From: a virus
Reading direction: 5' to 3' (one strand)
Length of the DNA: 28,900 nt
Virus record (IMG/VR): IMGVR_UViG_3300034072_002234
Location: 1-28,900 of that record
This document shows, one piece after another, positions 10,313 through 23,474 of the stretch. Made by a program: the position numbers and the translations under genes. The number at the start of each line of letters is the position of its first letter. Within the stretch, counting starts at the first letter, position 1. Under the pieces are notes generated by a model. The model saw nothing but the letters and a program-made list of their open reading frames with translations. It was not told the DNA's origin and did no database searches.

Positions 10313-10496
10313 AATCTCCAGAACGGTCTATAAGGGCTTGAATTGGTTTTATTGCGGTGTATGTATGGATTGAGCTGTATAAGGCGCTTCTTGGTCGATT
10401 TGAAGCGGCATTTAACGGTTATAGGGTGGCTTGCTGTTGATTTGTTTTCCTTTTTGAACAAATATGGGGGTGGATACTCCAAAAAAGGAACTTGAA

Positions 10497-11381
10497 ATGG
10501 CAAGAAAAAGAAAGCTCTCCTTCGGCATCATCAATATTACGATGCACCCACACACACCAGAGCGCTACGTCGAACTTTTAAAAGCTGCAGACAAAAATAA
10601 GCTTTTAACCTCGCTGGGCCACAATCAGTCAGCATTAATAAACAATGTTGGTTTCATGAATGCGGGAGACAGAGCTCCTGACTCGCCAGTTCGGGGAACC
10701 TTGATCAAGTTTAACGATATTGACGTACAGGGCGCATGGTTTGACGTTGTTAATAACAAAGAGGCTGATGAGGCAGACATTGCCAAAGTGAGCATACCAG
10801 ACCATCTGAAACCAAATATGATGAGTTTTGAGTTTGTTTTCTTTCCGAAAAAACATCTGCTGTTTTATGAGTGTTTTTACAAATCGAATAAACTATCACC
10901 GGCAATGGCAATGAAAGCGTTGAATGGAATTCTCAACAACCCATTATTGCAGGAAAGCTTTGGTGTTATCGAAATAACGCATGTGCCTGAGCAGGATGGA
11001 CTGGATACCGCTCTGGCATCAAAGCGAATTAATAACCTTGTTCTTAGAATAACTCGTCCAAACGCAGATCATTTCTCCAAAATTGAACAGCAGTATCTGG
11101 CGAAAATGAACAAGCAGAACGTGGCTGAGATAATCGAGGAGCACAAAGCGGTGAAGGGTGAGTTTCTTGTGATTGATCAGGAAACGAAGAATAAGGCAAA
11201 AATAGCAGAATCCAATGGGTATGTTGAGATGAAAGGGCTGGATGGAGACAACAAGCCTGTGCATTACTCCACCTTGAGCCACCCGCGAGTTGAGACGGGT
11301 TACTACGACATCAATATAGATACACCACTGTCATTTTTATTTAAAATGGCGCGAGACATTATCAATAAAATGAAGAATTAG
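10497..11381 (+). CDS. DUF4747 family protein, accessory cassette gene 1
   Basis: 294 residues from ATG 10497, supported by AAGGA at about 10486-10490. An upstream in-frame ATG at 10464 adds 11 residues without a good ribosome site. The N-terminus (RKLSFGIINITMHPHTPERY), GTLIKFNDIDVQGAWFD and FEFVFFPKKHLLFYE fit the DUF4747 family as I know it. No catalytic motif is visible and the function is unknown. It is soluble and charged, with no signal peptide. Only 2 bp separate it from a four-helix membrane protein gene, so the two form a cassette. The 184 bp before the gene hold no ORF and no convincing promoter. Insertion between gp31-like and protease genes, at a Mu operon boundary, suggests an accessory role, possibly in defence. 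Confidence 0.75.
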   Translation: MARKRKLSFGIINITMHPHTPERYVELLKAADKNKLLTSLGHNQSALINNVGFMNAGDRAPDSPVRGTLIKFNDIDVQGAWFDVVNNKEADEADIAKVSIPDHLKPNMMSFEFVFFPKKHLLFYECFYKSNKLSPAMAMKALNGILNNPLLQESFGVIEITHVPEQDGLDTALASKRINNLVLRITRPNADHFSKIEQQYLAKMNKQNVAEIIEEHKAVKGEFLVIDQETKNKAKIAESNGYVEMKGLDGDNKPVHYSTLSHPRVETGYYDINIDTPLSFLFKMARDIINKMKN

Positions 11382-11383
11382 AT

Positions 11384-11989
11384 ATGAATGGCAAAGCGGA
11401 AAAGACAGCTGAGAGTCTGCCGGAATCAATTTATTTAAGGTACTGGAAGGCATATGGTGGGCTATGTGCATTAGTCACGAGCGGCTATTTTTGGACGTCT
11501 GTGGTCGTAACGCTGTGCCTTTTTAATTTGTGGACAAATCAGGGTTGGTGGGACCCTGTGTTGTCTATCATGCCTAACTTATTGGGGTTTTCGTTGGGTG
11601 GATTTGCGTTATGGCTAGCAATAGGTGATGACGGATTTAGAAAGGAGATATCCAGTAAGGACAACGAAGAGCAATACTCCATATACACCAGCATCAACGC
11701 GAGTTTTGTGCATTTTATTGTGCTTCAAATTTTAGCCATTACCTGCGCATTACTTGCGAAGTCTTTCGATTTCGTTCTGTCTGCTGACAGCTGGCCCGTC
11801 AAATATTATGCAGATGAATACTATGCTCTGTGTACAGTAGGGGCCTTTATTGGTTTTTTCTTGTTTGTGTACGCCTTGTTCTCTGCATTGGCAGCTACGA
11901 TGGGCTTGTTTCAAATAACCTTTATGTACGAGCACTTTTTAAATGCCAAGAAAGATGACGAATGTCGATGTGAGAATAAAAAAACATAA
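11384..11989 (+). CDS. Four-helix membrane protein, accessory cassette gene 2
   Basis: 201 residues with four predicted membrane segments near residues 33-50 (GYFWTSVVVTLCLFNLW), 58-80 (containing PNLLGFSLGGFALWLAIG), 107-125 and 143-172. A charged loop (DDGFRKEISSKDNEEQ) lies between helices 2 and 3, and the tail is short and charged with two Cys. I do not recognise a named family. It is coupled to the DUF4747 gene by a 2-bp gap (TAG-AT-ATG), which argues that they act together, with the membrane protein as anchor or effector. The function is unknown. Confidence 0.7.
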   Translation: MNGKAEKTAESLPESIYLRYWKAYGGLCALVTSGYFWTSVVVTLCLFNLWTNQGWWDPVLSIMPNLLGFSLGGFALWLAIGDDGFRKEISSKDNEEQYSIYTSINASFVHFIVLQILAITCALLAKSFDFVLSADSWPVKYYADEYYALCTVGAFIGFFLFVYALFSALAATMGLFQITFMYEHFLNAKKDDECRCENKKT

Positions 11990-12025
11990 CTACCGCACTA
12001 CCTGAAGGAGTGCGAGTCTACAAGT

Positions 12026-12053
12026 TACTAGCTTTAGCAAAACCCTTTAATCC
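12026..12053 (+). promoter_or_regulatory. Copy B of the duplicated 28-bp element upstream of the protease gene
   Basis: TACTA, then GCT, then TTAGCAAAACCCTTTAATCC: 25 of 28 bases identical to copy A at 2146-2173, which lies 9880 bp upstream. Here the element is non-coding, 36 bp after the second accessory cassette and 58 bp before the protease ATG. This is where Mu carries its late promoter PI. CTAAGTC follows at 12060, comparable with CTAAATC after copy A. A shared late promoter/activator site or a cassette-boundary recombination site are the leading readings. Confidence 0.5.
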
Positions 12054-12081
12054 ACAAGTCTAAGTCCTATCCCCCAAAATC

Positions 12082-12111
12082 AGCCCAGTGAGTTTTTAAC
12101 CCTGGGCTTTT
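12082..12111 (+). terminator. Terminator-like or leader hairpin just before the protease gene
   Basis: AGCCCAG (12082-12088) pairs perfectly with CTGGGCT (12102-12108) around a 13-base T-rich loop and is followed by TTT and then the ATG at 12112. The short T tract makes it a weak intrinsic terminator for the cassette. If transcription starts at the 12026-12053 element, the hairpin would sit in the protease leader next to its start codon and could regulate it. Confidence 0.5.
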
Positions 12112-14674: not shown

Positions 14675-15094
14675 ATGAGTTATTGCGACCTGCCCCAACT
14701 CAAAACGCGATTCGGTGCTGACGAAATCAATCAACTGATTGACCCCGACGGTACTGGCGTGAACGAGTCGATTGCCCTGGCAGAACTGGATTCAGCCAGT
14801 GCACTGATAGATAGCTATCTGGCAGGTCGCTACCCATTACCTCTGGCCGTGGTGCCAGTCGTTCTCAATGGTGTGTGTGCTGACATCACCCGTTACAACC
14901 TCTATCGCAATGCAGTGCCTGAGCTGGTGAAAGATAAATACTTGGCGGCGATGAAGTACTTGCGCGATGTGGCAGACGGTAAGGCAACCCTGGGACTGAG
15001 CAGTGAGCAGCAAGCGCCTGATACGGAAGCGGCCATCGAAATTAAAAGCGGTGGCAATGTTTGGCACCGTGATGCAAGCAAAGGATTTATCTGA
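14675..15094 (+). CDS. DUF1320 head-tail protein, Mu gp36-like
   Basis: 139 residues beginning MSYCDLPQLKTRFGADEI, with DSASALIDSYLAGRYPLPL and a helical region DITRYNLYRNA, the standard DUF1320 (Mu gp36) layout. It is probably a head-completion/connector protein comparable to HK97 gp6-type adaptors. GGAG about 9 bases before ATG 14675 serves as ribosome site. The stop overlaps the next ATG (TGATG). Confidence 0.88.
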   Translation: MSYCDLPQLKTRFGADEINQLIDPDGTGVNESIALAELDSASALIDSYLAGRYPLPLAVVPVVLNGVCADITRYNLYRNAVPELVKDKYLAAMKYLRDVADGKATLGLSSEQQAPDTEAAIEIKSGGNVWHRDASKGFI

Positions 15095-15531
15095 TGCTGT
15101 TGCCTATTGAGCAACTGTTAAAGGCATACCAGGAAGAAGGTAAAGCAGCGTTTCCAGTCGTTGGCAGTGCCTTCAGTGTCGCTCTGGCCATGAAAGATGG
15201 TTTGAGCAAACCGCGCCAGGCCTACGTGGTGCCTTTACCCTCCAGCTACCAGCCCGGCACTAAGGATTTGGGGCCACTGCTGCAGACAGGCCAATTTGAG
15301 TTTGGCGTGGTGGTAGGGGCCAAGTTGATTGACGACCCCAGAGGCGAAAAAGGCAACAAGGTCATGGACGAGCTGAGCAAGTCGGTGATTGCAGCGCTAA
15401 TGGGTAGGCAGCCTTCAGAGTATGCAGAACGCATAGAACTGAGCCGGATTGACCCGATTGGTATCAAGGAAAACGCCATTTGGATTTTATACCGCTTTAA
15501 AACAATGGTGCGCGTGCACCAGGGAGCTTAA
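15094..15531 (+). CDS. Tail terminator-like protein (Mu gp37 position)
   Basis: 145 residues. LLPIEQLLKAYQEEGKAAF is followed by beta-strand-rich sequence (GQFEFGVVVGAKLIDDPRGEKGN, then IWILYRFKTMVRVHQ). The length, predicted alpha/beta fold and position after the gp36-like adaptor and before the tail tube are those of tail terminator/completion proteins (lambda gpU type, Mu gp37 type). It would cap the tail tube and join it to the head. The assignment rests mostly on synteny. Confidence 0.65.
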   Translation: MLLPIEQLLKAYQEEGKAAFPVVGSAFSVALAMKDGLSKPRQAYVVPLPSSYQPGTKDLGPLLQTGQFEFGVVVGAKLIDDPRGEKGNKVMDELSKSVIAALMGRQPSEYAERIELSRIDPIGIKENAIWILYRFKTMVRVHQGA

Positions 15532-15534
15532 GCA

Positions 15535-15684
15535 ATGAGTACCAAAAAACATACCGGTGGCAGTCGCTTCTTAATTGATGGCAAAGAAGTCACTAAAGAT
15601 GAATACCTGGCAGCGAAAGCGAAGGCCAAAGCAGCAAAGCCTGTCGCTAAAGCACCTGCCCAAGACAAAGGGAGTAATGGCTAA
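15535..15684 (+). CDS. 49-residue basic Lys/Ala-rich protein
   Basis: A short gene starting at ATG 15535 with GGGAG at 15522-15526, and ending in a TAATG overlap with the tail tube gene. The product begins MSTKKHTGGSRFLIDGKEV and continues with a Lys/Ala-rich tail (YLAAKAKAKAAKP). It occupies the place where Mu-like phages carry a small gp38/DUF2635-type gene, but the sequence does not clearly match that family. Good ribosome site and tight packing indicate a real gene. The function is unknown. Confidence 0.75.
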   Translation: MSTKKHTGGSRFLIDGKEVTKDEYLAAKAKAKAAKPVAKAPAQDKGSNG

Positions 15685-16634
15685 TGTCATTATCAGATAA
15701 AGAAGAGTTTATTTTATTCCAGCTCAATCCTGGTGCTTATGGCTCAGCGCAGGCGTTAACGGCTGTTCATGCAATTCCGGCAGCAGATTTGAATTACTCG
15801 CCTGAACTGCAGACTGAGCAAACCAACGAATCCAAAGGGTTTGATGGTGCGTCGGCGGCAAAAATTGTCGGCGGTTATCAACAAATCACCTTTAAGTGCT
15901 ATTTGCGTGGTTCTGCAGATAGCGAACCTGATACGCCTCCTGTTTATGGACCGCTGTTAAGAGCTGCTGGCCATCGTCAGGATATCACTCTGACAGAAGT
16001 TACTTACAGCCCTGTCAGTGAAGCGCTGGAGCACGGCACCTTGTGGTACTACGTGGGTGGTGTGAATGGCGTCCTGCACAAGCTCACTGGCGTTCGTATG
16101 TCTTGTAAGTTTATGGCCAAAGTCGGCGGATTAGCCTATTGGGAATTTACTGCAATGGGCCTGGACAACGATCCAGTTCCTGCCGGTGCTTATCCTGACG
16201 TGGATTGGTCAGGCTTAACAGTTCCACTGCATACCGCCGCAAATAATGTGCAAACCATGACACTGTTTGGTGCAGCTGTTGGTATGTCCACTTTAACCAT
16301 TACACCTGGTTTTACTGTGGGCCACATGCACGTGACCAATCAGGAAGAAATCGTGAAGACCGATGTGGGGGGCAGCGTGGATATATCCATTGTTGAGCCA
16401 GATCCAACTGTCATCAACTACTGGACTAAGGCCAAAGCCGGTGATCAAGGCGCACTGGTATTTCAGCAAGGTAAAACTGCGTCGGTTGGTGAAATTTTCC
16501 TGGCTGACATTCCAAACCTGCAGCTGGCCACAGCGCCAAGCCGCCAAAAACGGGATGGCCGTTTGTACCTCGACCTGAAGCTGACCATTGTGCCGTTGAC
16601 CAAAAATAGCGGACATACCTTCGTCACCAAGTAA
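15684..16634 (+). CDS. Major tail tube protein, siphovirus type
   Basis: 316 residues, beta-rich, with paired phrases typical of tube proteins: YSPELQTEQTNESKGFDGAS, then YVGGVNGVLHKLTGVRMSC, AYWEFTAMGLDNDPVP and later RLYLDLKLTIVPLT. Size and position before the tail chaperone and tape measure genes indicate the major tail subunit. Mu has sheath (gpL) and tube (gpM) genes here; no sheath-sized (about 495-residue) gene is present, so the tail is non-contractile. The last third may be an extra surface domain. Confidence 0.75.
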   Translation: MSLSDKEEFILFQLNPGAYGSAQALTAVHAIPAADLNYSPELQTEQTNESKGFDGASAAKIVGGYQQITFKCYLRGSADSEPDTPPVYGPLLRAAGHRQDITLTEVTYSPVSEALEHGTLWYYVGGVNGVLHKLTGVRMSCKFMAKVGGLAYWEFTAMGLDNDPVPAGAYPDVDWSGLTVPLHTAANNVQTMTLFGAAVGMSTLTITPGFTVGHMHVTNQEEIVKTDVGGSVDISIVEPDPTVINYWTKAKAGDQGALVFQQGKTASVGEIFLADIPNLQLATAPSRQKRDGRLYLDLKLTIVPLTKNSGHTFVTK

Positions 16635-16699: not shown

Positions 16700-17131
16700 A
16701 TGAGTATCAAAATTAAAGTATCTGCATTAAAAGACCGCCGCTTCAAAGCTCCGGTCACTGCATTGTTAGCCAGTGATGAGCTGAATGCTGACGGTACACT
16801 GAAAAAAGACCACCTGAAGTTTGTTGGTGTGTTCCGCAGTTTGCCAGATGAGGAAGTGCGAGCGCATGTCGCACGAATAGAAGCATTGCGTAAGTCTGCC
16901 ACCACTACGCACGATCAAGTGATTGATGAAACCCGCAATCAAATCAAAAAGTACCTGGTTGCTGTTGAGAAGCACCCATCCTGCGACTACCCGTTTTTAG
17001 GTGATGATGGCCAACCAAGAGAGAGTTCTCCTGAACTTATCGACGATCTGATCTCCATCAAAGAAATTCGTGATGCAGTCGAAGACGCCTACAAGAACGC
17101 CCGTGACAGCGATGTATTAGCAAAAAACTAG
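16700..17131 (+). CDS. Tail assembly chaperone, short form (lambda gpG-like)
   Basis: 143 residues starting at ATG 16700 with AGAGG just upstream. The protein is mixed alpha/beta and charged (VFRSLPDEEVRAHVARIEALR, then VIDETRNQIKKYLVAVEKH). It lies directly before the tape measure gene and ends at TAG 17129-17131, immediately after an A_AAA_AAC slippery heptamer. This arrangement is that of the lambda G/GT pair, in which the short chaperone coats the tape measure during tail assembly. The 65 bp before the gene hold no ORF. Confidence 0.8.
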   Translation: MSIKIKVSALKDRRFKAPVTALLASDELNADGTLKKDHLKFVGVFRSLPDEEVRAHVARIEALRKSATTTHDQVIDETRNQIKKYLVAVEKHPSCDYPFLGDDGQPRESSPELIDDLISIKEIRDAVEDAYKNARDSDVLAKN

Positions 17132-17493
17132 CAGACGTAGCCGCCTGGTGGGCCGGAGGGGCAACCAATAAAAGCGAAGCGGTAAAAGAGCGCATGCAGC
17201 AGTTGGGAGCGCCTCAGGCTTTGATTGACCAGGTAGTTACAAAAGAAAGTGGTCCGCCAGAAGTGCAGCCAGCTAACCAAATCACTGCCCAGGTCTTTTT
17301 CGCGTGTGCTACGCAGTGGGTTTACGCCGGAATGGCCGGAGTACGCACCGGCCTCAATTATCCGGCAGTTGAAATCAGGGCATCAAAAATGCCGGACTAT
17401 CACCAGTTAAGCATGGAAGACCAAAACTGGGTATGGGAAGGACTGCAGCGCATGGAAGCTGCGGCGCTGAATGTGTGGAACAGCAAGGACTAA
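16700..17493 (+). CDS. Tail assembly chaperone, -1 frameshift product (gpGT-like, DUF1799 C-terminus)
   Basis: Slipping back one base at 17122-17128 joins the short chaperone to the -1 frame, which is open from there to TAA 17491-17493, giving 264 residues. The added part reads LADVAAWWAGGATNKSEAV at first and includes QITAQVFFACATQWVYAG, PAVEIRASKMPDYH and WEGLQRMEAAALNVW, which matches the DUF1799 family that forms the T part of such fusions. An ATG exists at 17194 but has no good ribosome site, so frameshifting is the likely route. The longer form would be made in small amounts and recruit tail tube protein. Confidence 0.8.
17122..17128 (+). other. Programmed -1 ribosomal frameshift site A_AAA_AAC
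   Basis: In the chaperone frame the codons run GCA AAA AAC TAG, so the heptamer is a canonical X_XXY_YYZ slippery site one codon before the stop. The -1 frame leads straight into the DUF1799 sequence. A GC-rich stretch begins about 12 bases downstream and may slow the ribosome, though I do not see an unambiguous stem. Confidence 0.85.
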
Positions 17494-17567
17494 CGTTTAA
17501 AGAGCCATACCAGGAAGGCGGCCACACACAGCGCAATCACAACAACCAACGCAATTAATAAATTCAT
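17490..17567 (-). CDS. Antisense hydrophobic micro-ORF (25 residues)
   Basis: On the minus strand, ATG at 17567-17565 opens a 25-codon frame to TAG at 17492-17490: MNLLIALVVVIALCVAAF, then LVWLFKR. It is a near-perfect single membrane helix with a basic C-terminal end, and it fills almost the whole 104-bp gap between the chaperone and tape measure genes. The ribosome site is weak. Its size and make-up resemble small membrane peptides such as type I toxins. It is the only minus-strand candidate I consider possibly real. Confidence 0.35.
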   Translation of the reverse strand: MNLLIALVVVIALCVAAFLVWLFKR

Positions 17568-17594
17568 ATCAGTACCAGAAACGGGATTTTTTCC

Positions 17595-17623
17595 AGTATG
17601 AGTGACCTGACCTTAGCGATCAA
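17595..17623 (-). promoter_or_regulatory. Possible minus-strand promoter for the micro-ORF
   Basis: Reading the minus strand, TTGATC (17623-17618) and CATACT (17600-17595) are separated by 17 bases, each matching four of six consensus -35/-10 positions. Transcription would begin about 20 bases before the micro-ORF ATG. Matches of this quality are common by chance, and the site overlaps the tape measure start. Confidence 0.2.
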
Positions 17624-20600
17624 GTTAACAACCGAAGGCGGCCAGGTGGTCGTTAAAGACTTATCGACTATTGTTCAAAGCAGCAACAAGGCGGCAGATG
17701 CTCTTTCGAGTATCAGCACCGCTGGCAATGCTGCAGGGCGCGGTTTGGATAACACGTCAGACAGCAGCGAAGTACTGGAAAAGAACCTGAAAGAACAGAA
17801 CCAAGCGCTGCAAAAAGTGATGACAGACTTGCAACGCACCGCTACCGCCAGCATCAGCACAGGCCGAGGTTTTGATGCAGCATCACTTGGTAGCAAATCA
17901 CTATCTAATACCCTGAAGCAGAACGACACTGATTTAACTCATGTCAGAAACAACATGCTGACCTTAGTTGGCGTGAGCGCTGCTTTATATGCGGGTATGG
18001 CCGCTTTTGGTCAGGTAAGGGGTTTAGCCCAGCAAGCGGATGACTTTAACGTTCTGCAGCAACGTATCAAAACAGCGACTAAAGATACCGGCGATTACAA
18101 CCTGGTCAGCGCTGAAATGTATGCTATTGCCCAGGAGAACGGTGCGGCATTAGCACCAACGGTTGAACTGTTTCAGCGCTTAAGCTCCAGTCGTAAAGAC
18201 TTAAAAGCCACTAACGAGCAGATGCTGGACTTTACCGATACCGTACAAAAGCTCGGTGTGATTGGTGGCTCAAGCACTCAGGCGATGGAAAACGGCCTGA
18301 TGCAATTGAGTCAGGGCTTATCGGGCGGTGTATTACGGGCAGAAGAATTTAACTCCATTTTAGAAAACATCCCTGAGCTGGCAGTTCGTATTGGTAAAGG
18401 GATGGATGATATTGGCAAGTCTGACAATGAGCTTGGCCTTGGCGACCTTCGCAAATTAGTGCTGGAAGGCAAACTGCTTTCTGATGATGTGTTGAAATCT
18501 ATCCTTTCTCAACTACCCGAAATATCGAAAGAATTTGCTGATATGCCTGTGAGTATGGGGCGTGCCAGTGTGATGGTTGATAATGCAATCTCTGCCGCAC
18601 TGGCGCGATTAGATGAGGCTTCAGGGGTAACAACAGTTTGGGCCGACACGTTAGTCAGCATCAGTGAAACCTTAGATGATATGGACGCTACAGAACTAAA
18701 TAATTCTGTAGCTGCATTGCTGGCTATTGCGGGTGGTGGTGCTGCGTTGATGATCCTTAGCAAATACGGCATCGGCTTAGCCAGTGTTGGCGCAGGGTAT
18801 CAGGCTTTAACTGCATGGATCAGTAGTTACCGAACTGTGCAAGTTGCTACGACGGCAACAGTCTACAATGCCGCTACCATGACCAACTTGACTGTAGCGT
18901 CGAATATGGCTGCGGCACGGTCTTTCAATATTCTCTCCGCCAGTGCCGGAGCTGCTCGCGGTGCGTTGGCTCTAATTGGCGGTCCTGTTGGCTTAGCTGC
19001 CTTGGCCGCTTGGGGCATTTACGAGTTTGCTAACAGTTCTACAGAGGCGGAAGAAAAAGCCGAGTTGATGGCCAAAGCCTTGGGTGATGTAGGCACTGGT
19101 TTTGATGAAGTAAGCAAAAAGAATGCTGCTGCAAAAATTACGGAGAATTTAGGCAAGCTATCAACAGTTAATGCAGACCTTGCCAGCTTAGAAAGCAAGT
19201 TAGCCTCTACTAAACGTCAGATGGATGCGCTTGGAACTCCACGCTCTGAGACTCAATGGCGTCAATATGATTTAGGTGTTCAAAAGTTAAGTGTTTTAGA
19301 AAACAAAATTAAAGCGACTAAGCAGCAACAACAAATTTTGATAGATGCCAACAATCAGTTAGAGCTGGTTGCAAATCCTGTAAAGCCTAGCGGTGATGAT
19401 AACAAGACTAAGGCCGACGCTTTAAACGAATCCCTATTGAAGCTCTATAACACTCAAATGCTCAATGCTCAGGCTGTTGATGCTCAGGGCCGCGCTTTAA
19501 ACGGTGTTGATTTAGAGCTGTTCAAAGCCAAATTTACCGAAGCAACAAAGCTACCTGCTGACGCAGAGGCTGCAATTCGCTCCTGGATGAAATCTGCCGA
19601 AGCTGCGGCTCAACTCGCCACCAATGACAAGTACTTAGTTGGTCTGACCGAAGAAGTACGCCTGCAGCAAATTCGCCTGCAGTTGGGTGAACAAGAGTAC
19701 GAGCTGGCCAAAGCCATATCCAGCCAAAAAATCACCGATCCAAAACAGTTGGCCACGTTAAAACAACAACTGGCACTGCAACAACAAATTAGCCAGGTGA
19801 AAACTGAGGATGATGCTTTAAAGGCACTGGAACAAGAAAACGATTTGTTGCAAATTCGCCTGGATAAAGGTGAGGCCGAGTACGAACTGCAGAAAATGGT
19901 CCGTCAGTTAAAAGTCACGGATCCGGCTACAATTGCCCTGCTGGATTTAGAAATAGACCGTCAGCGTAAGCTCAACGAGCAGTTGGACGTGCGCAAGTAC
20001 TTAACCGATGGCACTTATGACGATGTGCTGGATGGTCTGACTCAAATTGGTGATGTGGGTGGGGCCGCAGGCAATGCCCTAGTTGATGCCTTTGGCTCCG
20101 TTGCAGACCAGTTCGCTAATATGGCTGAGCAGCAGGACGAATTTACGAAGAAGTTTATTACTCTGTCCGAAGCCCGAAAAAAAGCAGAGAAGGAAACTAA
20201 CCCAGCACTGCGCACCAAAGCCCTGGAAAAAGCCGATGCTGTAGAGCGCTCTTTGATGGAAGACCAATTGCGCATGCAGATTGGTGGTTATGCAACACTG
20301 ACCAGCGCTGCCAGCAAAATGTTTAGCGAAAACAGCAAAGGCCGCCAGGTATTGCACCGGATGGAAACCACCTTTGCTGCCATTGAAACAGCCCTTGCAC
20401 TCAAAAAAGCCGCTGCCAATGCGTTAACTGCCATCACAAATCAGGGCGGTGGTGATCCTTATTCTGCATTCGCCAGGATTGCGGCAATGGCTGCATTGAT
20501 GGCTGGTCTTGGCGTATTCAGCGGAAGTACTTCAAGTGGTACAAGTGCTACAAGTCGCCAGGAATCCCAAGGCACTGGCACTATCCTTGGTGACAGCAGC

Positions 20601-23474
20601 GCAAAATCCAATTCTATTGCCAACAGCCTGGAACGTATTGAATCTTTGGAACTGGATCAATACTCAGAGCTACGTTCAATTAATGCCTCTATCCGGTCTT
20701 TAAATGCCGGTATTGCCAAACTGGCCGTAAATCTTGTAGCAAGTTATGGCCGCTTTGATGAAGGTAATTACCAGGGGGAACTTGGCAAAGATTATAAAGT
20801 GCAGTTGGGAAGTACTGCCGGTGCTTTAGTACTGGGTGGTGTGATTGGTGCTGCAGTTGACAATATGCTTGGCGGCTTGCTTTCTGGCATTACAAACAAA
20901 GTGCTTGGCGGCTTATTTGGCTCGACCAAAAAAGAGCTGGTAGACAGCGGTATTAGCTTTGCCGCACAGGAACTGGGAGACATCTTAGCCACTGGTCTGG
21001 TCGATGCCACTCTGTACGACGTGATTAAAACGACTAAAAAGAAAGCCTTTGGTTTATCTAAGTCTACCCGCGAAAACACCGAGTACCGCACTCTTGATGA
21101 GGAAATCCGTGCCGAGTTTGGCCGTGTGTTTTCTTACATCGGCAATTCAGTCACTGATGCAGTAAAACTGCTGGGCCTGACTACCACCAAAGACTTAGAA
21201 GACTTTGTGATCAAGTTGCCTAACGTGTCTTTTAAAGACCTGTCTGGCGATGAAATAGAAAAAGAGCTGCAAGCCATATTTAGCCAACAAGGCGACCTAA
21301 TGGCCAAGTACCTTATACCAGGCATTGCTGAATACCAGGCAATGGGTGAAGGGCTTTACGATACGTTAATTCGGGTTGCCCAGGAGCAAGCTGTTTTTAA
21401 CTCATCATTAGATGCTTTGGGCTTGCAGCTATCTCGTTTTGCTGGCGTAACTAAAGCGGTAGAAGTGGACGTAGCGCAGGCGCTGATAGAGCTGATGGGC
21501 GGCATTGAAGAGTTTACCAGTGCCACCAGCAGCTACTTTGAAGAGTTTTACAGCGAAGCCGAGCAGCAAGCTTACCTGGCGAAGCTTGTTAGCGATCAAT
21601 TTAAATCGCTGAATGTCGCTTTGCCTGCATCCCGCGAAGGTTTTAAAGACTTAATCGATGGCATCGATATCACCACTGAATCTGGCCAGCAGCTATTTGC
21701 CGCGCTGATGAAATTAATTGACCCGCTGGATCAATTGTATGACGCCGCAGAAGAGGCCGCTAAAGCAGCCGCAAAAGCCGCCGAAGAAGAGAAAAAGCTG
21801 GCAGCAGAGCGCAGTAAATACAACGCATCAGTGCGTAGTGATATTCAGCGCATGGGCATGAGCCCGCTGCAGATTGCTCTGGACGATATTAATAAGTGGT
21901 ATGTAGATGCAACTAAAGAAGCGAAAGAGCTGGGTGCAGATACTGGGCTGCTGACCAGCTTGTACAACAAAAAACGCGAAGCTCTGGCCACAGAATACGT
22001 CTCCAAATCCATCCAGTCGGCTGAAGCAGCCATGACGTCCCTGGTTGCTGACTATCAGCGCACTGTTGAGCAGCTGGGCCAGACGCTGGCGTCAGTGTTG
22101 GACAGCATTGCTGGCATGTCCGACACCATCCGCGGTGACATTTTAAACATCCGTAAAACGCTGCCGGAATTTGATGGCGTAGCTTATTACAGTGGTGAAG
22201 TGGCCAGCCTGTCTGCCCAGCTTGGCACCGGCACTGCAACAGCTCAGTTAGATATTATCGGCAGGTTAAAAGCGGCGATGCTTGAGCGCTATAACGCCGA
22301 GCTGGCAGCAATCGGCACTAATATGGACGCGCTGCAGGCTGAGCAAGATGCGAAGCAGGAACTTTATGAAACTCAGCTTGAGCAGTTTGAGTCACTAAAA
22401 GACGCTGCGCTTAGCCTGAAAAATGCGGCTGCATCACTCCTCTATAGCGACCTCAGCACCCTGACTGCAGGCGAACGTTTGCAGCAGTTGCAAAGCCAGT
22501 ACAACACTGCAGTTACTAAGGCCCGTGGTGGTGATGCTGAAGCTTATGCCCAAGTGCAAAGTCTGGGCGAGCAGCTGCTGCAAATGAGCAAAGACTATAA
22601 CCCCGCAACGTACAGCGGAGTTTTCGACTCTGTACTTGCGGTATTCAACGAGCTTGGCAGTAAAGAGTTTGCAGCCCCAACAGAGCCAGCCCCGCATCCA
22701 GCTGTTACAGCGTTTGAGGCCGAAAAAATCGCCCTGGCTCGGCAGACTATTGCGCAGCTGGAGGCGCTAACGGGCCGAACCGAGTCATTAAACGCAGTGG
22801 CCAACGCTGAGTACACAGCTGCGATTGATGCACTCAAAGCACAGTTCTCTGCAGATGCTGCCGGTATCACAACCACACTGCAAACCGAGCTGGCTGCAGT
22901 TCGTGCTGTGATGCCAGCGGAAACAGACCGTGTAGTTGCTAAGCTGCAAGAGTCCATAGACGCAATTTTTAATATGAGAGACGGTGTTGTCGGTGCAATT
23001 AAAGTGATCCCAACGCCGCCGCCAATTGATTGGGGTCCAATCAGGGATCCAATAATCCAATTACCACCCAAGTTAGATCGTATTTGGGAGCCGCTGCCGC
23101 ATTTGCCGCCATATTTACAGAACATAGAGACTAGTGTGCGTGATGTATCTCGCGATCAAATATTCACGCTACAAAAAATGGAAGATACGCTTCATAACAG
23201 CAACCTAAGCCTTGCAACAATAGCCAGAGCCGACTTTGTCACTAAACCGCTGATTATCCCACCAGCTCAGGTTGAAGTGAACGTTGATATGGTGTCAGTG
23301 GTAAATGAGTTGCGTGCTGTTCAGCAAAAGCAGCAACAGCAAATTGAGCAGCAAGCAGCGATAGGTAATGCAACAACATCGAAGTTGGCTGAAGTCGTTG
23401 ATTCAAACAAAAAGCTGCAAACCGAGCTGGCCGAGTTCTCTGGCCAAGCCATCGCATTGGCGAGGGTTAGCTGA
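17598..23474 (+). CDS. Tail tape measure protein, 1958 residues
   Basis: The largest gene. Residues about 115-320 match the tape measure domain of siphophages: a hydrophobic MLTLVGVSAALYAGMAAFG, then GLAQQADDFNVLQQRIKTAT, ALAPTVELFQRLSSSRKDL, MENGLMQLSQGLSGGVLRAE and EFNSILENIPELAVRIG. Further hydrophobic stretches occur near 370-410, 455-480 and 1075-1115; much of the rest is coiled coil. A roughly 60-residue unit is repeated in tandem at about 680-735 and 740-795 (LQQIRLQLGEQEYELAKAI and LLQIRLDKGEAEYELQKMV). No lysozyme or peptidase motif is seen. It sets tail length and probably helps DNA cross the host membrane. GGGA 11 bases upstream is the likely ribosome site for ATG 17598. Confidence 0.92.
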   Translation: MSDLTLAIKLTTEGGQVVVKDLSTIVQSSNKAADALSSISTAGNAAGRGLDNTSDSSEVLEKNLKEQNQALQKVMTDLQRTATASISTGRGFDAASLGSKSLSNTLKQNDTDLTHVRNNMLTLVGVSAALYAGMAAFGQVRGLAQQADDFNVLQQRIKTATKDTGDYNLVSAEMYAIAQENGAALAPTVELFQRLSSSRKDLKATNEQMLDFTDTVQKLGVIGGSSTQAMENGLMQLSQGLSGGVLRAEEFNSILENIPELAVRIGKGMDDIGKSDNELGLGDLRKLVLEGKLLSDDVLKSILSQLPEISKEFADMPVSMGRASVMVDNAISAALARLDEASGVTTVWADTLVSISETLDDMDATELNNSVAALLAIAGGGAALMILSKYGIGLASVGAGYQALTAWISSYRTVQVATTATVYNAATMTNLTVASNMAAARSFNILSASAGAARGALALIGGPVGLAALAAWGIYEFANSSTEAEEKAELMAKALGDVGTGFDEVSKKNAAAKITENLGKLSTVNADLASLESKLASTKRQMDALGTPRSETQWRQYDLGVQKLSVLENKIKATKQQQQILIDANNQLELVANPVKPSGDDNKTKADALNESLLKLYNTQMLNAQAVDAQGRALNGVDLELFKAKFTEATKLPADAEAAIRSWMKSAEAAAQLATNDKYLVGLTEEVRLQQIRLQLGEQEYELAKAISSQKITDPKQLATLKQQLALQQQISQVKTEDDALKALEQENDLLQIRLDKGEAEYELQKMVRQLKVTDPATIALLDLEIDRQRKLNEQLDVRKYLTDGTYDDVLDGLTQIGDVGGAAGNALVDAFGSVADQFANMAEQQDEFTKKFITLSEARKKAEKETNPALRTKALEKADAVERSLMEDQLRMQIGGYATLTSAASKMFSENSKGRQVLHRMETTFAAIETALALKKAAANALTAITNQGGGDPYSAFARIAAMAALMAGLGVFSGSTSSGTSATSRQESQGTGTILGDSSAKSNSIANSLERIESLELDQYSELRSINASIRSLNAGIAKLAVNLVASYGRFDEGNYQGELGKDYKVQLGSTAGALVLGGVIGAAVDNMLGGLLSGITNKVLGGLFGSTKKELVDSGISFAAQELGDILATGLVDATLYDVIKTTKKKAFGLSKSTRENTEYRTLDEEIRAEFGRVFSYIGNSVTDAVKLLGLTTTKDLEDFVIKLPNVSFKDLSGDEIEKELQAIFSQQGDLMAKYLIPGIAEYQAMGEGLYDTLIRVAQEQAVFNSSLDALGLQLSRFAGVTKAVEVDVAQALIELMGGIEEFTSATSSYFEEFYSEAEQQAYLAKLVSDQFKSLNVALPASREGFKDLIDGIDITTESGQQLFAALMKLIDPLDQLYDAAEEAAKAAAKAAEEEKKLAAERSKYNASVRSDIQRMGMSPLQIALDDINKWYVDATKEAKELGADTGLLTSLYNKKREALATEYVSKSIQSAEAAMTSLVADYQRTVEQLGQTLASVLDSIAGMSDTIRGDILNIRKTLPEFDGVAYYSGEVASLSAQLGTGTATAQLDIIGRLKAAMLERYNAELAAIGTNMDALQAEQDAKQELYETQLEQFESLKDAALSLKNAAASLLYSDLSTLTAGERLQQLQSQYNTAVTKARGGDAEAYAQVQSLGEQLLQMSKDYNPATYSGVFDSVLAVFNELGSKEFAAPTEPAPHPAVTAFEAEKIALARQTIAQLEALTGRTESLNAVANAEYTAAIDALKAQFSADAAGITTTLQTELAAVRAVMPAETDRVVAKLQESIDAIFNMRDGVVGAIKVIPTPPPIDWGPIRDPIIQLPPKLDRIWEPLPHLPPYLQNIETSVRDVSRDQIFTLQKMEDTLHNSNLSLATIARADFVTKPLIIPPAQVEVNVDMVSVVNELRAVQQKQQQQIEQQAAIGNATTSKLAEVVDSNKKLQTELAEFSGQAIALARVS

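Follow-up and report, generated by a model that had tools for sequence, protein, structure and literature searches.

An antisense gene for a single-helix micro-peptide between the tail chaperone and tape measure genes of Mu-like phages

Superinfection exclusion has been reported for the small single-helix protein gp15 of the temperate long-tailed phage HK97 (PMC10883804). In the HK97 record, gp15 is annotated as a moron product; it comprises 62 aa with an N-terminal helix, and its plus-strand gene, which has a putative terminator, separates the tape measure gene from that of the G-T frameshift chaperone. No gene is annotated in this slot in the record of phage HK022. The E. coli phage mEp013 also has small membrane-associated genes immediately upstream of its tape measure gene, namely those for the lipoprotein mEp013_85 and the 59-aa membrane protein mEp013_86, both encoded on the minus strand (PP180002.1 36525-37090, corresponding to 980-1545 of locus L083). 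mEp013_86 is present in no other phage record searched. Lipoproteins from the structural cluster of mEp013's phage group gave exclusion, a result that is not tied to mEp013_85 itself (PMC11893012). In SPN3UB, the small minus-strand frame by the tape measure gene encodes a soluble product of 65 aa. Tab of JBD26 is an 83-residue moron product encoded in the late operon of a Mu-like phage, which is expressed from the prophage and acts via the tape measure protein of rival phages (PMC10884400); however, its gene is located between the terminase genes, and Tab blocks tail assembly rather than DNA entry.

The DNA analysed here, referred to as the window, is a stretch of 28,900 nucleotides that comprises most of a Mu-like phage, with a Mu portal protein (PF06074, E 8e-99), Gp27 (E 8e-51) and a major head protein (phrog_371). 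L024, a near relative, has genes for a Mu-type transposase and for an S24-type repressor that includes a Mu DNA-binding domain and is encoded on the minus strand, and the same gene order is present as a prophage in Rheinheimera sp. 4Y26; the group is therefore temperate and transposable. The phages that carry the cassette described below are Mu-like phages of Rheinheimera-type bacteria. The window also contains variable slots elsewhere. Between the gpG-like and protease genes, an accessory slot (10313-12111), for which no PADLOC match was obtained, harbours a DUF4747 gene (10464-11381, E 6.7e-59) and a gene for a 201-aa membrane protein (11384-11989); the cargo of L024 and L006 at this place is different, and AcrF2 occupies the matching slot of D3112. 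Another variable slot holds a gene for a 281-aa membrane protein without family (1325-2170), at the position of which L024 carries genes for a 499-aa protein and a probable DNA methylase, the latter judged by its N-terminal sequence.

The tail chaperone of the window is a G/GT pair with a conserved slippery sequence, A AAA AAC. Chaperones of this type are known for frameshifting, and the T part is therefore presumed to be reached via a -1 shift. At 104 nt, the chaperone-tape measure gap exceeds every other unfilled space of the tail operon and is the only sizeable one left empty there, in line with the earlier note; a second space of 152 nt (15532-15683) before the tube gene, flanked by the genes 15094-15531 and 15684-16634, holds a lysine- and alanine-rich plus-strand frame of 49 aa (15535-15684), which is conserved in L024 and L006. 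On the minus strand, the gap is filled by a frame for the peptide MNLLIALVVVIALCVAAFLVWLFKR (Table 1), and the start-to-stop hydrophobic helix ending in KR, as well as the overlap of its stop with that of the chaperone, were found as the earlier note had described them. The antisense stop TAG is the reverse complement of CTA at 17490-17492 and shares two bases with the chaperone stop TAA at 17491-17493, an arrangement that arises automatically wherever a codon ending in C or T precedes TAA or TAG. The maximum Kyte-Doolittle value of the peptide over 19 residues is 3.19, and values of at least 2.5 are reached by just 2 of the 150 ATG-initiated reading frames of 20-60 aa in the window.

Table 1. 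Features of the chaperone-tape measure junction in the window and antisense peptides of the related loci
Feature	Coordinates	Strand	Remarks
Tail assembly chaperone G	16700..17131	+	A AAA AAC slippery sequence (17122-17128) immediately precedes stop
T part of G-T chaperone (DUF1799)	17128..17493	+	PF08809, E 1.8e-9; stop overlaps antisense stop
Antisense micro-peptide CDS	17490..17567	-	ATG to TAG, 25 aa, predicted single transmembrane helix, C-terminal KR
Cassette inserted at the chaperone-tape measure junction	17494..17597	.	not in other chaperone homologues
Presumed leader with Shine-Dalgarno position	17568..17594	-	sequence just upstream of ATG
Candidate sigma-70-type promoter TTGATC-17-CATACT	17595..17623	-	overlaps first nine tape measure codons
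Tape measure protein gene	17598..23474	+	phrog_7740, E 2.8e-134; 1958 aa
L024 antisense peptide			MNLLIAVGVVIALCVAAFLVWLFKR
L007 antisense peptide			MNLLIAAAVVVGLCMAAFLVWFFKR
L006 antisense peptide			MDFLLTVFLVIGLCVAAFLVWLFKNPG
L008 antisense peptide			MNFLIAVGIVIVLLVAGLWAFIFKNPPR
L057 antisense peptide			MSFLIAVGMVIVLVVLALWAFIFKSPR
L058 antisense peptide			MSFLIAVGIVIVLVVLALWAFIFKSPR

A hydrophobic frame at this position could be a by-product of base composition, since the CAA-rich plus strand favours valine, isoleucine and leucine codons on its complement, so that a CAA/AAC-rich spacer could yield a functionless run of such codons. However, only 23 of 20,000 dinucleotide-shuffled gap sequences yielded a comparable antisense frame, and searches with the chaperone, the antisense peptide and the tape measure N-terminus recovered six more loci that share both the gap and the peptide. 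The frame is open from start to stop in all seven cassette-bearing loci, free of the stops and frameshifts that the earlier note had named as grounds for rejecting it, even at peptide identities down to about 45% and DNA identities of 56-90% (five members compared pairwise). Calculated over 24 ungapped codons of all seven sequences, the peptide frame has a pN/pS of 0.41 and the other five frames have values of 0.79-1.39, and none of 1000 column shuffles gave so low a value (mean 0.94, minimum 0.52); among the first five members, the corresponding values are 0.34 and 0.66-1.96. One plus-strand frame of the gap is likewise stop-free in all seven loci, but with a pN/pS of 0.79 it was rejected as coding. 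Length changes at the 3' end of the peptide CDS are multiples of three, whereas indels in the leader comprise 1-3 nt. All peptides are strongly hydrophobic (Kyte-Doolittle 2.7-3.2), 25-28 aa long and basic at the end, where FK(R/N/S) is conserved. Conservation thus largely refutes an origin by chance, which we regard as highly improbable. Since the frame is conserved in six relatives, its reality can be considered settled: conserved frame, purifying selection, frame-preserving indels and Shine-Dalgarno sequences all indicate that the antisense membrane micro-peptide gene proposed in the earlier note is almost certainly real.

Almost all other chaperone homologues examined have no peptide encoded at this place, and only a few to about 20 bases separate their stop from the start of the tape measure gene; in L045 and L070, the spacer measures a few tens of bases and contains no such frame. 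The cassette of approximately 105 bp is thus an insertion, an extra gene in seven loci between genes that are adjacent in relatives. A tape measure tree places its carriers in two groups, next to a third one that lacks the cassette, but does not resolve the fork at which they join; a single gain is therefore likely, not proven. Divergence in L024 is far greater in the chaperone than in the antisense peptide; the cassette thus follows the tape measure side. One 75-kb record, UViG 3300034072_002256, comprises a pair of tape measure loci, L057 and L060, both from this phage group but only one with the antisense peptide, which suggests two related prophages side by side.

Beyond these loci, neither the DNA nor the peptide had a match in phage and plasmid collections, and a profile search of 14 viral records, including those without cassette, gave no further copy. 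Assignments of the peptide to PHROGs phrog_7746 (E 0.04), Pfam DUF3149 (E 0.019; 15.0 bits versus a cut-off of 23.2) and an NCBIfam entry (E 0.88) were rejected as below-threshold matches typical of hydrophobic segments. Among 395 genomes of the host family, the only convincing match of the peptide profile is the 4Y26 phage locus; other matches lie inside long reading frames, with E values of 1.9e-4 or worse, and were discarded.

Upstream of the frame, the weak promoter-like pair with 17-bp spacing mentioned in the earlier note is present as TTGATC (17618-17623) and CATACT (17595-17600), with 8 of 12 matches and ordinary strength. TTGAnn-17-CATACT is found in all seven members, 27-31 nt upstream of the peptide ATG, and may serve as a minus-strand promoter. 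The scores (6.9-9.0) are close to the median best score of random 200-nt minus-strand stretches (6.45), so each pair by itself is ordinary. Conservation of the -35 element is only suggestive, because it sits within tape measure codons and is present also in sister phages without the cassette; the AGT completing the -10 element is part of the cassette. A good minus-strand Shine-Dalgarno sequence is found in five of the seven members (AAGG in L006, L007, L057 and L058, AAAAGGA in L008), whereas the window and L024 have only TGGT at this position. No convincing minus-strand terminator was detected; one weak terminator-like site approximately 340 nt downstream coincides with the frameshift slippery site. 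The minus-strand RNA showed no unusual fold (z = +0.98) and no Rfam match. As the predicted transcript start adjoins the tape measure start, the transcript would cover the ribosome-binding region of that gene, and the locus could encode an antisense RNA controlling tape measure translation, in which the frame is incidental. However, selection acts on the amino acids of the peptide frame only, coding indels keep this frame, most members have a Shine-Dalgarno sequence and the RNA fold is ordinary; a purely regulatory RNA, one of the functions offered by the earlier note, is thus disfavoured and appears very improbable.

Of the functions considered there, a lysogeny-expressed exclusion peptide fits best. 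We tentatively favour an inner-membrane peptide that hinders superinfection, at somewhat less than an even chance, because its slot is shared with gp15, because other small minus-strand genes lie by tape measure genes and because of a peptide encoded at locus L050. Like gp15, the window peptide is small, probably consists of a single helix with a predicted N-out, C-in orientation, and belongs to a temperate long-tailed phage in which its gene separates the G-T frameshift chaperone from the tape measure gene. However, gp15 is encoded on the plus strand and carries a cytoplasmic tail, whereas the window peptide is antisense and tail-less, and neither BLASTP nor hhalign aligned the two, a weak test for so short a peptide. 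The L050 peptide (G099:C27, 1813-1918; MLTLLAVLLMVYLFAYLVLPALWDEIIKAWRNS) is likewise antisense, a single helix, located in the same gap and with a stop overlapping that of the chaperone; however, it is a single example without detectable homology to the window peptide, and neither it nor its chaperone has relatives in the viral contigs or phages searched. The minus-strand genes of mEp013 differ in being larger, two in number and from an unrelated phage. The cassette may be classed as a moron by its insertion, though not yet by its expression signals, and its resemblance to a gp15-type moron in position and anatomy is an analogy. Morons as such are known already; the antisense placement and the size of the bare helix are new. 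The moron-type insertion, the temperate transposable phage, the minus-strand repressor of L024 and the HK97 gp15 slot count in favour of exclusion, and the weak promoter overlapping coding sequence, the poor Shine-Dalgarno sequence of the window, the lack of a convincing terminator, the absence of similarity to gp15 or any family and the narrow distribution over seven loci count against it.

A function in lysogeny other than exclusion could lie in the modulation of a host inner-membrane protein or transporter. KdpF and MgtS are small regulators of membrane proteins, and the size of the antisense peptide, its single helix and the conserved end would fit such regulators; furthermore, moron cargo often alters the host, and the peptide itself is conserved. 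However, interference with injection accounts better for a position next to the tape measure gene, and, as the sole convincing match in the host family is a phage locus, no homologous host gene points to a host role. We consider such a regulator rather unlikely. The hydrophobicity, the length and the basic end are also compatible with a small type I-like membrane toxin, whose mRNA another RNA, such as the late-operon transcript, would silence, and the gene is indeed fully antisense to another transcript. However, the late transcript, as the supposed antitoxin, would be absent in the lysogen, which would leave a toxin unopposed, and the mRNA, with its short presumed leader, lacks both unusual structure and an Rfam match. 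A dedicated antitoxin RNA was not found for the peptide, though one may exist. The toxin suggested by the earlier note has no specific support, and we regard it as improbable.

If the peptide excludes superinfecting phages, the following course of events can be envisaged. The reverse-oriented moron between the chaperone and tape measure genes would be expressed in the lysogen, in which the late operon is silent, from the weak promoter at the tape measure start, giving a short mRNA and then a single-pass inner-membrane peptide, probably with its N-terminus outside and its C-terminus inside according to the positive-inside rule. In the membrane, it would most likely hinder DNA entry of related phages, whose tape measure protein has a part in the membrane stage of injection, as for HK97 gp15. 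Upon induction, the plus-strand late transcript would switch the peptide off via occlusion and antisense pairing. It is tempting to speculate that the cassette encodes a minimal exclusion helix switched off by the phage's own late transcription, so that a single stretch of DNA would combine exclusion with self-release, and, as hinted by the unrelated L050 peptide, that the chaperone-tape measure junction is a general landing site; this combination is doubtful.

Genes of 25 codons opposite an operon escape annotation. Comparative evidence shows that the one described here is real and under selection, and it occupies a position at which another phage has an exclusion gene. Should it exclude rivals, the peptide would, to our knowledge, rank with the smallest known exclusion proteins, and one could then ask how a bare helix interferes with tape-measure-dependent DNA injection.
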